From an uncultured Saprospiraceae bacterium (GTDB taxonomy: Bacteria; Bacteroidota; Bacteroidia; Chitinophagales; Saprospiraceae), in the NCBI GenBank assembly GCA_937951615.1, contig CALFBH010000104.1:1-49876 (forward strand): a DNA stretch of 49,876 bases. The letters are read 5' to 3'. The translations under genes were made by a program, and so were the position numbers. Position 1 is the stretch's first letter. Each line of letters opens with the position of its first letter. Of the stretch, positions 21,488-49,870 are shown in pieces. Under the pieces are notes generated by a model. It made no database searches, was not told the DNA's origin, and worked only from the letters and a program-made list of their open reading frames with translations.

Positions 21488-21523
21488 TTATTCACATTTG
21501 TACTTTTTCATTGACATACATTT

Positions 21524-21572
21524 TAGCCACGAATGCACGAATTTCTATTGATTATTCGTGTATGCGTGGCTA
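21524..21572. repeat. Dispersed palindrome TAGCCACGAATGCACGAAT, copy 1
   Basis: Left arm 21524-21542 and right arm 21554-21572 pair 17 of 19. A second copy of the same family is at 49186-49232. It sits between two convergent genes. Confidence 0.8.
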
Positions 21573-21600
21573 AAAATATAAGTCTCTGTTCAATATCCTA

Positions 21601-22887: not shown

Positions 22888-23047
22888 GGTTTGGTGATTG
22901 GTTAAGTGGAAATACAAATTCAAACGCCAAATACAAATTCAAAAAAATATTGACAATAAGCCAATTGTATAAATTGAAAGTGGCCTTTAGTTGAGTCTAG
23001 GCACTTAATTGGTGATTGGTGAAAATAATTTACCATTACTAAGTTTT
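22888..23047. repeat. blaI-blaR1 spacer made of stuttering repeats
   Basis: Contains TTGGTGATTGGTT at the left end, CAAATTCAAACGCCAAAT in the middle and ATTGGTGATTGGTGAAAAT at the right. The middle word recurs at 33953-33980, and the outer word on the other strand at 8837-8880. Confidence 0.5.
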
Positions 23048-30072: not shown

Positions 30073-30143
30073 ATTTTTCTCGCAAAGACGCTAAGTCGCA
30101 AAGTTGTTTTCTCTTAGCGTCTTTGCGACTTAGCGAGAGAATT
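30073..30143. repeat. GCAAAGACGCTAAGTC stutter palindrome, copy 1
   Basis: CTCGCAAAGACGCTAAG and a run CTTAGCGTCTTTGCGACTT face each other. The arms are out-of-register tandem units of about 16 bases rather than a simple hairpin. It lies between divergent sucA and the GHMP kinase gene. A second, truncated copy is at 31211-31250. Confidence 0.8.
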
Positions 30144-31370: not shown

Positions 31371-32249
31371 ATGCTATTATCCATGACCGGCTATGGACGA
31401 GCTGCCAGAAAACTGGGAGAACAATCCGTCATTGTTGAGGTAAAATCACTCAACAGTAAATATTTGGATCTCAAAACCAGGCTTCCGCAAGGCTTCCATG
31501 ACAAAGAAATGGCAATCAGGCAGTTGCTAACCAAAGCAGCTAAGCGAGGAAAAATAGATATGTCCATAGAGATACAGCAGGAAGGCGCCGGGCATGAGAT
31601 GTTATTCAACAAGGAACTCTTTTCGGCTTATTATAAGGAGTTGAAAGCGATAAAAGATGAATTGGGTATCTCGGATTCTGCGGACTTGGTGCAGTCCATC
31701 ATGAGAATCCCGAATGTACTGGCTGCCGGAGACATGCCGATTGATGATGAAGTCTGGAAAGTCATACAGGAAACAGCGAACGAAGCCTTAGCAGCTTTTA
31801 CAAAATTTAGAAAAACGGAGGGCGAGGTCACCGAAACAGATTTCCGACTCAGAGTCACGAATATCCGCACTTTGCTGAAAGAACTGGCACCACATGAAGC
31901 ACCCCGAGTGGATAGATTGCGCGACCGCTATCGTCAACATCTAAATGATTTGCATTTGCAAAACGGTTTTGATGAAAATCGCTTTGAACAGGAAATTATT
32001 TTTCATATTGAAAAACTGGACTTGACAGAAGAAAAAGTTCGACTAGAACAGCATTGCGATTATTTTCTCGAACAACTGGACGACAAAACTGAAATTAAAG
32101 GTAAAAAACTCAATTTTATCTCGCAGGAAATGGGCCGGGAAATCAATACACTTGGTTCTAAAGCCAATTCTGCCGACATACAGCGCATCGTCGTGCAAAT
32201 GAAAGATGAGTTGGAAAAAATCAAAGAACAAACGGCTAACATTTTATAA
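31371..32249 (+). CDS. yicC: YicC/YloC family endoribonuclease
   Basis: 292 residues from the ATG that gives MLLSMTGYGRAARKLG; an earlier in-frame ATG would translate the promoter region. The family start SMTGYGRA is diagnostic, as are EVKSLNSKYLDLKTRLP near the N-terminus and GKKLNFISQEMGREINTLGSKAN near the C-terminus. Bacterial YicC is described as an RNA endonuclease and hexameric RNA-decay factor. A TATCTTTG at 31332 fits a Bacteroidota -7 element. The next gene downstream is the CYTH-guanylate kinase fusion, and yicC-gmk adjacency is widespread in bacteria. Confidence 0.95.
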   Translation: MLLSMTGYGRAARKLGEQSVIVEVKSLNSKYLDLKTRLPQGFHDKEMAIRQLLTKAAKRGKIDMSIEIQQEGAGHEMLFNKELFSAYYKELKAIKDELGISDSADLVQSIMRIPNVLAAGDMPIDDEVWKVIQETANEALAAFTKFRKTEGEVTETDFRLRVTNIRTLLKELAPHEAPRVDRLRDRYRQHLNDLHLQNGFDENRFEQEIIFHIEKLDLTEEKVRLEQHCDYFLEQLDDKTEIKGKKLNFISQEMGREINTLGSKANSADIQRIVVQMKDELEKIKEQTANIL

Positions 32250-32399
32250 CGAGTTGGCGAGTTACGGGTTTGGGAGTTGCGAGTTGTTGTATTTTGCTCT
32301 GCAAAATGTGCTAATATGAAACACGCAACAGGTCTCAACCCGCAACTCGACAACTCGACAACTCGACAACTCGCAACACAAAAACCCGCAACTCGACTC
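32250..32399. repeat. Palindromic element filling the yicC-gmk spacer, with (CAACTCGA)4
   Basis: The left arm is a stutter of GAGTTGCGAG words (32250-32289) and the right arm its complement, ending in four tandem 8-base units CAACTCGA/C at 32343-32374. The centre, at 32291-32307, is ATTTTGCTCTGCAAAAT, matching the cores at 35600 and 48220. The element ends at the start codon of the fusion gene. Confidence 0.85.
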
Positions 32400-33515
32400 A
32401 TGAAGATTACCAATGTTGAAATAAAAGCACATTGTAAAGACCCTGCGGGAGCAGAACGGATGCTGCTGGACTTAAAGGCCAAATTCGCAGGAACAGATGA
32501 ACAGACAGATACTTATTTTAAAGTAAAAGAAGGACGGCTCAAACTGCGCGAAGGCAATATTGAAAACAGCCTGATTTATTATCAGCGTGCCAATGAAGCA
32601 GCTTCCAAACGCTCGGATGTACTGCTCTACAAAACGCAGGATGCGGCTGAACTGAAGCCTATTCTGAAACAAACGCTGGAGATTCTCGTTATTGTAAAAA
32701 AGAGACGCAAAATATTTTTCATCGACCAGGTAAAATTTCATATTGATGAAGTCGATGGGCTAGGTGCATTTTTGGAAATAGAGGTCATTGATGAAGCGGG
32801 AAATCAGGACGAAGCGGATTTGCGAAAGCAGTGTCTCCATTATCAGCGTCTACTTTCTGTGAACGATTCAGACTTGGTTCGTGTTTCTTATTCGGATATG
32901 ATTTTACATAAAAAAACGCCTGAAATAATAGTGGATTCAACAGAGCTTATAAAGACGAAATTAATTGCATTAACAGCACCGTCAGGAGCAGGGAAAACAA
33001 CGATTGCGCGACATCTGCTAAAAACGTTTGATGACTTGGCATTCTCTATTTCTGCGACTACTCGTGAGCGGCGTCCGCATGAAGAAGATGGACGAGATTA
33101 TTATTTTCTGAGCAAAGAAGAATTTGAACAAAAAATAGCCAATGACGAGTTTGTAGAATGGGAAGAAGTGTATGCCGGACAATATTATGGCACGCTGAAA
33201 AGCGAAATCGAACGCATCCGAAAAGCAGGTAAACACGTTATTTTTGACATTGATGTACAAGGTGCGACCAGCATCAAAAAAGTATATGGAGACGAGGCAA
33301 TGGTGGTTTTTATCAAACCGCCATCTCCTGAAGTTTTGTTTGAACGCCTCCGGAATCGCAAGACAGAAAGCGTGAAAAGTTTGGAAAAGCGCATCGCTCG
33401 CGCTCGGCGAGAATTGACGTATGAAGATAAATTTGATCGAGTATTGGTGAATGATATACTGGAAGTCGCATTTCAGGATGGAGAAGCACTCATTAAAGAA
33501 TTTACGAAGATCTGA
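32400..33515 (+). CDS. gmk: CYTH domain-guanylate kinase fusion protein
   Basis: 371 residues from the ATG giving MKITNVEIKAHCKDP; upstream in-frame codons lie in the palindromic repeat. Residues ~1-178 are a CYTH domain of the class IV adenylate cyclase type: NVEIKAHCKD, DTYFKVKEGRLKLREG, LILIVKKRR-like positively charged strand (EILVIVKKRRKIFFID), VDGLGAFLEIEVID. Residues ~187-371 are a complete guanylate kinase: P-loop TAPSGAGKTTIARHLL, SISATTRERRPHEEDGRDYY, FVEWEEVYAGQYYGTLKSEI, VIFDIDVQGATSI and FIKPPSPEVLFERLRNRKTE. Gmk makes GDP from GMP. All Gmk motifs are intact, so it is likely the cell's essential Gmk. The CYTH partner is unusual and its activity is unknown. Confidence 0.93.
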   Translation: MKITNVEIKAHCKDPAGAERMLLDLKAKFAGTDEQTDTYFKVKEGRLKLREGNIENSLIYYQRANEAASKRSDVLLYKTQDAAELKPILKQTLEILVIVKKRRKIFFIDQVKFHIDEVDGLGAFLEIEVIDEAGNQDEADLRKQCLHYQRLLSVNDSDLVRVSYSDMILHKKTPEIIVDSTELIKTKLIALTAPSGAGKTTIARHLLKTFDDLAFSISATTRERRPHEEDGRDYYFLSKEEFEQKIANDEFVEWEEVYAGQYYGTLKSEIERIRKAGKHVIFDIDVQGATSIKKVYGDEAMVVFIKPPSPEVLFERLRNRKTESVKSLEKRIARARRELTYEDKFDRVLVNDILEVAFQDGEALIKEFTKI

Positions 33516-33946: not shown

Positions 33947-34282
33947 GGGGGGTAAATTCAAATTCAAACGCCAAATTCAAACTCAAAAGACAAACACAAA
34001 AACTACAGGAGGGCAGGGCTTCCTTTGGGAATAAGGCGCGGGAAGCAAATCCAACTAAAAAAGACTATTAGGCAACGTTTAAACAATAGATTTTTTCAAA
34101 AAGAACCATTTTCGTGAACGTTTTTAAAAAAGCAGACGTTATTCGCAATAACAATCTAAAAACTATGTCATAAAACCTTGTTACCCACAAGCAGACATGC
34201 GGTTTGAAGAAAGGTAGAATCAAAAAAAATAATTACCTTTATTATGTTATTGCTAAATTTTACATATACCGCACTCAACCCA
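33947..34282. other. Spacer between apaG and the ECF sigma gene
   Basis: Begins with a stutter AATTCAAATTCAAACGCC that repeats a word in the blaI-blaR1 spacer (22918-22945). The rest is AT-rich and should hold the sigma gene promoter. No gene is seen. Confidence 0.5.
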
Positions 34283-34946: not shown

Positions 34947-34954
34947 TTTATCTG

Positions 34955-34995
34955 CCGGACAGATGTTTGCTGAAAACATTTGTCCGGTTTTTTTA
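34955..34995 (+). terminator. Rho-independent terminator of the ECF sigma gene
   Basis: CCGGACAGATGTTT pairs with AAACATTTGTCCGG (one G-U pair), followed by a run of seven T. Confidence 0.9.
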
Positions 34996-35510: not shown

Positions 35511-35709
35511 TTAACCCAAGTTGAATATGTAGCCCCCAAATCTTATCAACGCTGGTCAAAGAAGTTTATAGTGTTTACAAGGTTTATACAATAGTGATTA
35601 TTTTGCAAAGCAAAATACGTCTTTATCAAACTATGTAAACTTCATAAACACTATAAACTACTGGCTGTGAAAATGTAAAATTGGGGGCTACTATTTCAAC
35701 TTGGGTTAA
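35511..35709. repeat. Compound nested palindrome with ATTTTGC-AAA-GCAAAAT centre
   Basis: Outer arms 35511-35539 and 35681-35709 pair 26 of 29 (TTAACCCAAGTTGAA, GTAGCCCCCAA). Inner arms GTTTATAGTGTTTA at 35564-35577 and 35645-35658 pair 14 of 14. The centre at 35600-35616 is ATTTTGCAAAGCAAAAT. Confidence 0.92.
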
Positions 35710-48148: not shown

Positions 48149-48293
48149 GTCGATAGTCGATGGTCAATAGTCCATAGACAGGAATTTAATAATGTATTTG
48201 TTTCGTAGATTTTATGCGCATTTTGCAAAGCAAAATGAAATACTGAAATGACCAGAATACTATAAAACAGCCATCGACTATTGACCATCGACA
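48149..48293. repeat. Palindromic spacer element with ATTTTGC-AAA-GCAAAAT centre
   Basis: GTCGATGGTCAATAGTC (48156-48172) pairs perfectly over 17 bases with 48276-48292. The centre is ATTTTGCAAAGCAAAAT at 48220-48236, almost exactly midway. Arms stutter (CGATAGTCGATGG). It lies between the hydrolase and ade genes. Confidence 0.9.
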
Positions 48294-49185: not shown

Positions 49186-49232
49186 TTAGCCACGAATATA
49201 CGAATAAAGTTTATTCGCACATTCGTGGCTAA
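49186..49232. repeat. Dispersed palindrome TTAGCCACGAATATACGAAT, copy 2
   Basis: Arms 49186-49208 and 49210-49232 pair 21 of 23. Same family as 21524-21572; the outer TAGCCACGAAT is identical and the centre differs. Confidence 0.85.
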
Positions 49233-49556: not shown

Positions 49557-49870
49557 AGGGCAAACGCATCAAATTAAAAAGCAACCTGAGTCGTCTGACG
49601 ATTCAATTTATTCAGGAGTTCATCGTCCTGTAAATCATCATGCGTGTGGATAAGCAATCATCGTCAGCCGACTTTTCTTCTTCATTTTCCAAATTTAAAT
49701 TTAATGCGGTGTTCAAAGTATGGAATAGTCGGCAGACGAAGGATTTGATTAAAATTAGTGGTTTGTCTCTGGAAATATGCTGTATTTTCAACTAAATTCG
49801 TCTGACGACAACGGAATTTGCTCAACGATGCTTTGATAGAACACGACTAAAATTTTGATGCGTTTGCCCT
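49557..49870. mobile_element. MITE-like element with 17-bp perfect terminal inverted repeats
   Basis: Ends AGGGCAAACGCATCAAA (49557-49573) and its exact complement (49854-49870) bound 314 bases with no coding capacity. Inner inverted words CGTCTGACGA (49592, 49799) add symmetry. Target-site duplication cannot be judged because the right flank is only six bases. A MITE or a deleted IS derivative fits best. Confidence 0.75.

Follow-up and report, generated by a model that had tools for sequence, protein, structure and literature searches.

The window, the whole 49,876 nt stretch of DNA analysed here from an uncultured Saprospiraceae bacterium, contains three intergenic palindromes, each with an exact ATTTTGC-N3-GCAAAAT core and inverted arms, as a preliminary description of these spacers had stated. 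Element 1 occupies its whole spacer, from a stop codon (32247–32249) to an ATG at 32400. Its core, ATTTTGC-TCT-GCAAAAT (32291–32307, unstranded), has AGA as its R-N-A loop when read on the minus strand. The left arm, directly after the stop codon, is a C-poor array of GAGTTGC-type words of the TTGAG family (32250–32286, plus strand), and the right arm repeats words of this type in inverted orientation and ends just before the ATG (32336–32397, minus strand). Element 2 has the core ATTTTGC-AAA-GCAAAAT (35600–35616, unstranded) and nested arms. The outer left arm belongs to the T family, TTAACCCAAGTTGAATATGTAGCCCC (35511–35539, plus strand), which is also found at loci L006, L021 and L027, and the inner left arm consists of weakly stuttered GTTTATA words (35560–35586, plus strand); the inner and outer right arms lie on the minus strand at 35636–35662 and 35681–35709. 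Element 3 has the same core as element 2 (48220–48236, unstranded), a left arm of the S words GTCGATA GTCGATG GTCAATA GTCCATA (48149–48177, plus strand) and a right arm of inverted S words (48271–48292, minus strand). The arms had been described as stuttered copies of a short word, which is clear for elements 1 and 3 but weak for element 2. The three elements happen to represent three arm families.

When folded as single-stranded DNA, elements 1, 2 and 3 were more stable than dinucleotide shuffles, with z-scores of −6.1, −10.4 and −5.4, and 0, 0 and 1 of 200 shuffles, respectively, folded as well. The sole match in the window to an Rfam family above the gathering score was 5S rRNA at 1–94, with none at the elements. 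Allowing up to two mismatches, the window contained just the three exact cores. Shuffled windows had a mean of 1.03 such matches and 7 of 100 shuffles reached three, so the window by itself is weak evidence. Other repeats are also present. Stuttered palindromes without the core, of CGCAAAGACGCTAAG words and TTAGCCACGAAT words, occur at 30080–30135, 21521–21575 and 49186–49232, and a AAATTCAAACGTCAAATTCAAATTCAAA-type 6-nt word repeat recurs at 22910–22943, at 33954–34000 and at several places in contig C41 of the same genome. Inverted AGGGCAAACGCATCAAA ends lie 280 nt apart at 49557–49573 and 49854–49870, and the sequence at 49708–49855 has many matches in three related genomes (G003, G004 and G005) at 71–88 % identity, representing another dispersed repeat.

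A search of the whole genome for the core, as proposed earlier, showed that the observation is real and extends well beyond the window. The genome of origin (G000, 6.96 Mb; the window lies on contig C104) contained 220 exact copies of ATTTTGC-N3-GCAAAAT and none of the reversed control pattern. Among 60 genomes of the genus, family and order, the other five of the same genus had 40 (G001), 32 (G002), 62 (G003), 41 (G004) and 12 (G005) exact copies, and the remaining 54 had 0–4 each. With two mismatches allowed, 566, 169 and 511 sites were detected in G000, G001 and G003 versus 38, 43 and 43 for the control. When the outermost pair was left free and an R-N-A loop was required, 365 sites were found in the genome of origin and at most 11 in each of 148 other genomes, nearly all from other families of the class. 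The core is also present in Saprospiraceae bacterium isolate MAG-32, the genome to which JAHDFX010000005.1 belongs, at loci L144, L146 and L155, and the host genus of these hairpin repeats is probably one of the Saprospiraceae. Cores lacking flanking repeats, which would count against the preliminary description, do occur: in a contiguous 446 kb sample of the genome of origin, 8 of 33 TTTTGC-N3-GCAAAA cores had no word array detected within 100 nt. Neither the core nor the S words were found described in the open-licence PMC papers searched, which is weak evidence of absence.

The core has the properties of a hairpin. Two-mismatch cores in the 446 kb sample were compensatory in 9 of 16 cases (GTTTTGC/GCAAAAC, ATTTCGC/GCGAAAT and TTTTTGC/GCAAAAA, three each), and none of the three one-mismatch cores was Watson–Crick paired at the altered position. 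A pattern admitting T-A, G-C, T-C or G-A as the outer pair matched 252 sites in G000 and G003, and among the 150 of these that were listed, 144 were paired at the outer position (12 by G-C), six were unpaired and 139 had R-N-A loops. The outermost stem pair of the core thus covaries. An R-N-A loop, on one or the other strand, was present in 209 of the 220 exact cores of G000, 29 of 32 in G002, 56 of 62 in G003, 39 of 41 in G004 and 11 of 12 in G005. Base composition predicts a fraction of 0.30, or 0.41 if loops with pairing ends are excluded. This loop rule is not universal, as G001 obeys it in half of its copies (20 of 40). A base other than A occupied the third loop position in 11 of the 220 copies of G000 (CAT, 2; AAT, 1; GAC, 1; AAG, 2; AAC, 1; AGC, 3; AGG, 1) and the middle position in at least 71. 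Other triloop hairpins of the genome of origin lean towards R-N-A as well (70 of 138 with stems of at least 6, 34 of 51 with stems of at least 7), which, like the expectation from base composition and the relaxed loops of G001, weakens the hairpin reading, although the core surpasses them (32 of 33 and 29 of 30). Several different loops were found within the larger word families, and the TTGAG elements had R-N-A loops in 18 of 18 cases with eight different loops.

In co-directional spacers the R-N-A strand was the sense strand in 37 cases and the antisense strand in 34, which makes host mRNA unlikely as the selected molecule. The independence of the loop rule from the transcribed strand suggests that the structure matters as DNA, and the rule seems to reflect a constraint that acts on the single-stranded form. 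An RNA element was rejected on the lack of loop strand bias and of any Rfam match besides 5S rRNA. DNA mini-hairpins with GNA loops and at least two G-C pairs are described as extraordinarily stable in PMC4686876. The loop reported there is GNA, whereas the core loops are split between GNA (47 of 105 sites with flanks) and ANA (50 of 105), or 12 and 20 of 33 in the contiguous 446 kb sample; it is assumed that an ANA loop would behave like GNA. The preliminary description is supported on two points: a conserved core flanked by differing arms, and a core that resembles a constrained DNA structure. Strict 7-nt half-sites at a constant 3-nt spacing, restricted to the genus, might also be expected of a double-stranded palindromic site for a genus-specific regulator or nucleoid protein, with the arms as incidental repeats. 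However, the half-sites covary rather than vary independently, in five of the six species the spacer conforms to the loop rule of a hairpin, and divergent, promoter-bearing spacers are avoided, and such a binding site is considered very unlikely.

Arms were analysed at 105 of the 220 sites in the genome of origin with 160 nt flanks, partly selected by loop class and hence not a random sample. Inverted pairing of the arms beat direct pairing at 91 of 105 sites, with five ties. Words of the S type (GTC-S-AT-R) were present on both sides at 44 sites, on one side at 8 and on neither at 53. Word families were defined as graph communities, with three S communities merged, and clustering of the 210 arms yielded the families S, TTGAG, TTGTG, GATGAA and T, leaving 11 arms outside any cluster. 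Both arms belonged to one family at 83 of 105 sites; 20 were mixed or half-classed, of which the 'mixed' labels at L015, L033 and L101 are probably S elements, and 2 were unclassed. Contrary to the first description, the arms are therefore not unrelated from locus to locus but fall into about five families, and a single universal arm family was likewise rejected. The inward-reading strand was poor in C close to the core, with 11 % C and 24 % G at 21–40 nt from it, compared with 18 % and 22 % at 121–160 nt. The S elements are dispersed units in which similarity ended at the array edges in the 42 tested, with short edge motifs in some. By eye, the short motif AACAGTTTA outside the arrays is common to some S copies (L015 and L033), and an extra inverted shell, TCATCCCGAATTTT, is present in one copy of the genome of origin and in G001 copies. 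In the T family, ACGTC adjoins the core.

Arm symmetry had been proposed as a test against shuffled sequence. Similarity between the arms was above the 95th shuffle percentile at 95 % of the 44 S sites, but at only 64 % of the 53 non-S sites. The median match of S arms was 16.5 with their own partner and 17.5 when partners were swapped between loci. Non-S arms matched their own partner better (15) than a swapped non-S partner (8), but this edge was lost or not significant when swaps were made within families. Own versus swapped matches within families were 15.7 and 17.8 for S, 20.8 and 22.5 for GATGAA, 19.5 and 19.8 for T, 15.9 and 14.5 for TTGTG (P=0.17) and 15.3 and 13.6 for TTGAG (P=0.08). 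As own pairs were no better than same-family swaps, the arms represent a few dispersed families without clear per-locus inverted duplications. An origin of the arms from local sequence, raised in the preliminary description, would take the form of template switching and slippage round the core hairpin at each site. PMC8794818 reports that stems can arise and be repaired by template switching, TTGAG own pairs were slightly above swapped pairs and some loci have arms that fit none of the families. However, the number of 12-mers per site that arms shared with their own flanks, at a distance of 220–1400 nt, was no higher (0.96) than the number shared with other loci (0.98), own pairs were no better than same-family swaps for S, GATGAA and T, and the differences for TTGTG and TTGAG were not significant. 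These comparisons do not support the local origin, and little probability is attached to it.

Gene calls were made with a simple codon-score caller, making the context counts approximate. One of the 105 sites lay inside a predicted ORF and five were not assigned to a spacer type. The 99 assigned sites were distributed over co-directional (77 sites), convergent (17) and divergent (5) spacers, for which 45,093, 10,543 and 18,869 nt of spacer sequence were available, respectively. Divergent spacers, with 25 % of the spacer sequence, were thus depleted of elements. The median distance from the core was 66 nt to a stop and 95 nt to a start, and the distance from an array edge to a gene end was no more than 25 nt in 41 of 129 cases for 3′ ends and in 27 of 127 for 5′ ends.

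Orthologous spacers were compared with those of G001, G003 and G005 in a rough table covering 31 of 33 gene pairs. Arrays were present in neither species in 17 spacers, in the relative only in 11, in the genome of origin only in 2 and in both with different words in 1; at least three of the 11 rows scored in the relative only were not words (one run of N and two A/T runs), and another, C41:265229 in G001, is an S element whose counterpart in the genome of origin scored just below threshold. This S element is apparently common by descent with G001, indicating that not all copies are recent. Element 1 was missed by the table because the caller set the start of the next gene inside it. The spacer between one convergent gene pair was about 174 nt with an element and about 12 nt in G001. 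Orthologous spacers in this comparison show gain and loss of elements. No target-site duplication was seen, the spacers hardly aligning between species, and no paralogous empty sites were found in the sequence analysed, all 16 double-flank matches being overlapping stretches of the same places.

Depletion in divergent spacers and the position nearer to stops than to starts are in favour of bidirectional terminators or mRNA 3′-end hairpins, with selection for any stem and tandem words that pair in any register. So is the observation that the same gene is followed by different words in different species: downstream of the gene that precedes element 1 there is a short array-free spacer in G001, AGTTCATGG words in G005 and S words in G003. 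However, a consensus scan for intrinsic terminators (a G+C-rich stem, then a T-run) gave no match at the three window elements, while canonical ones were found nearby, for example at 34954–34988. By eye, a T-run hairpin after C41:276696 is kept in G000, G001, G003 and G005, with word elements adjoining it in G003 and G005. The loop rule is also blind to the direction of transcription, and more than half of the orthologous spacers (17 of 31) had no array in either species. A role in termination is therefore regarded as unlikely.

Word arrays are not confined to the core. At the score threshold chosen, the 446 kb sample contained 130 intergenic arrays with a period of 6–9 nt, and a further 29 in predicted genes, whereas a Markov copy of the entire sample yielded 6. 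Among 36 neighbouring array pairs, 19 were G-rich inward, 2 were the reverse and 15 were same-sense or mixed; the two reverse-facing pairs look like chance neighbours. A core was enclosed by 12 of the 19 G-rich inward pairs. Among named genomes, 54 stretches contained the S 20-mer: 49 had titles that place them in Bacteroidota (including Mucilaginibacter, Runella, Niabella, Cyclobacteriaceae and Saprospiraceae), four came from other groups and one had no phylum in its title. The 53 S arrays with enough downstream sequence had an inward partner in 26 cases and an outward partner upstream in none. The genus core was present at 3 of these 53 arrays, all three in one G001-like genome. The exact S 20-mer was not found in viral contigs, and element 3 had no match in plasmids. 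The core therefore seems to have been added, at the level of the genus, to inward-facing word palindromes, a class that would be older and more widespread.

A search for a mobilizing enzyme focused on Y1 transposases (PF01797), which had matches in four of the six species (G000, 4; G002, 2; G003, 9; G005, 2; none in G001 or G004). No core-flanked Y1 gene was found at the 10 of 17 loci inspected (about 2–3.3 kb each), nine of which were without a core. At the tenth, L229, a variant core (TTTTGC-GTA-GCAAAA) is situated some 0.25 kb beyond the terminal palindromes of the gene itself; these are long and near-perfect (at about 1320 and 1940), with GCAAAAGC...GCTTTTGC. At L225 (1300–2150) a Y1 gene of 150 aa is situated between GCCCT-GAA-AGGGC hairpins, which have a GNA triloop and by eye are other REP-like hairpins, and GAAACCAC word arrays. 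The Y1 genes at L226 and L234 are flanked (at about 1320–1380 and 1970–2020) by CCAAGT-TTCA-ACTTGG and CCAAGT-TGAA-ACTTGG, with GTAG just before the first palindrome, like GTAG-tagged REPs. The species without Y1 matches include G001, where half of the loops depart from R-N-A, while the other five species keep 90–95 %. Relaxed loops and a missing Y1 gene correlate in G001 alone, as G004 (69 % complete) has no Y1 match and keeps the rule in 39 of 41 copies.

Dispersion, amplification in one genus and presence/absence differences between species indicate a mobile repeat. On present evidence there is about an even chance that the elements are small (about 130–200 bp) non-autonomous mobile palindromes of one genus, REPIN- or MITE-like, that move by a single-stranded DNA route. 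The element would be handled as single-stranded DNA, in which the TTTTGC/GCAAAA stem with its mostly R-N-A triloop may fold first into a mini-hairpin, after which the flanking word arrays could pair with each other in any register. A host-genus enzyme recognizing the hairpin would then copy or move the element into spacers, a Y1/RAYT-like transposase being a guess, and insertion may occur mostly beside gene 3′ ends, where it would do least damage. New arm families might arise when the core is joined to another word palindrome, coreless examples of which are widespread in the phylum. It is possible, though rather doubtful, that these elements belong to a hitherto undescribed Bacteroidota class of mobile 'word palindromes', in which inward arrays of 6–9-nt words, most of them poor in C, spread in the form of single-stranded DNA hairpins. 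A genus could add its own centre as a cap, here a DNA mini-hairpin with a selected R-N-A triloop. If true, this would be a conserved, strand-polar way to make palindromes with free arm sequence. Loop statistics may also help to distinguish single-stranded DNA from RNA hairpins in this case, as the rule follows the element strand and ignores transcription. If this is right, it would offer a signature by which elements handled in single-stranded form could be searched for, and would link the intergenic word arrays of Bacteroidota to mobile palindromes of fixed polarity.

Several known systems resemble these elements in part. Intergenic tandem 7-nt words are known as the STRR of cyanobacteria. 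As given in PMC4679880, TAACTGA heptamer repeats occur in Beggiatoaceae, Cyanobacteria and five Bacteroidetes, with 169 direct sets and one indirect set in the BOGUAY genome; they are similarly intergenic 7-nt tandem words with a patchy distribution across phyla, but are direct repeats, whereas the arrays of the core genus are often arranged as inverted pairs that face inward. Palindromic repeats tagged with GTAG or CGTC are also intergenic, some without a dedicated transposase and CGTC in Bacteroidetes, according to PMC3733652. Neither tag was enriched within 12 nt of the core (GTAG at 9 of 105 sites versus 10 in the control; CGTC at 6 of 105 versus 6), and both were rejected as tags of the core elements. 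REPINs and their RAYTs (Bertels and Rainey 2011, PMC3116915) share with the core elements short extragenic inverted units, predicted single-stranded DNA hairpins, many copies and non-autonomy, and the core elements do form inverted doublets with a predicted hairpin. However, the repeated parts of a REPIN are two REP sequences round a spacer, whereas the core elements share their centre, have arms of about five families and lack a conserved, GTAG-tagged REP in both halves. The S subfamily (44 of 105 sites) resembles MITEs in comprising many dispersed, short non-coding units of about 140 bp with inverted arrays at both ends as terminal repeats and a common inner sequence. In contrast to MITEs, the core elements as a whole end in word arrays of several unrelated families round one core, and the earlier view that they are no ordinary MITE was fair, since what they all share is the centre, with one or another of several word arrays at the ends. 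The elements are therefore filed neither as REPINs nor as proven MITEs, and a REPIN-like single-stranded DNA route is the likeliest of the explanations, with chances that are about evenly balanced.
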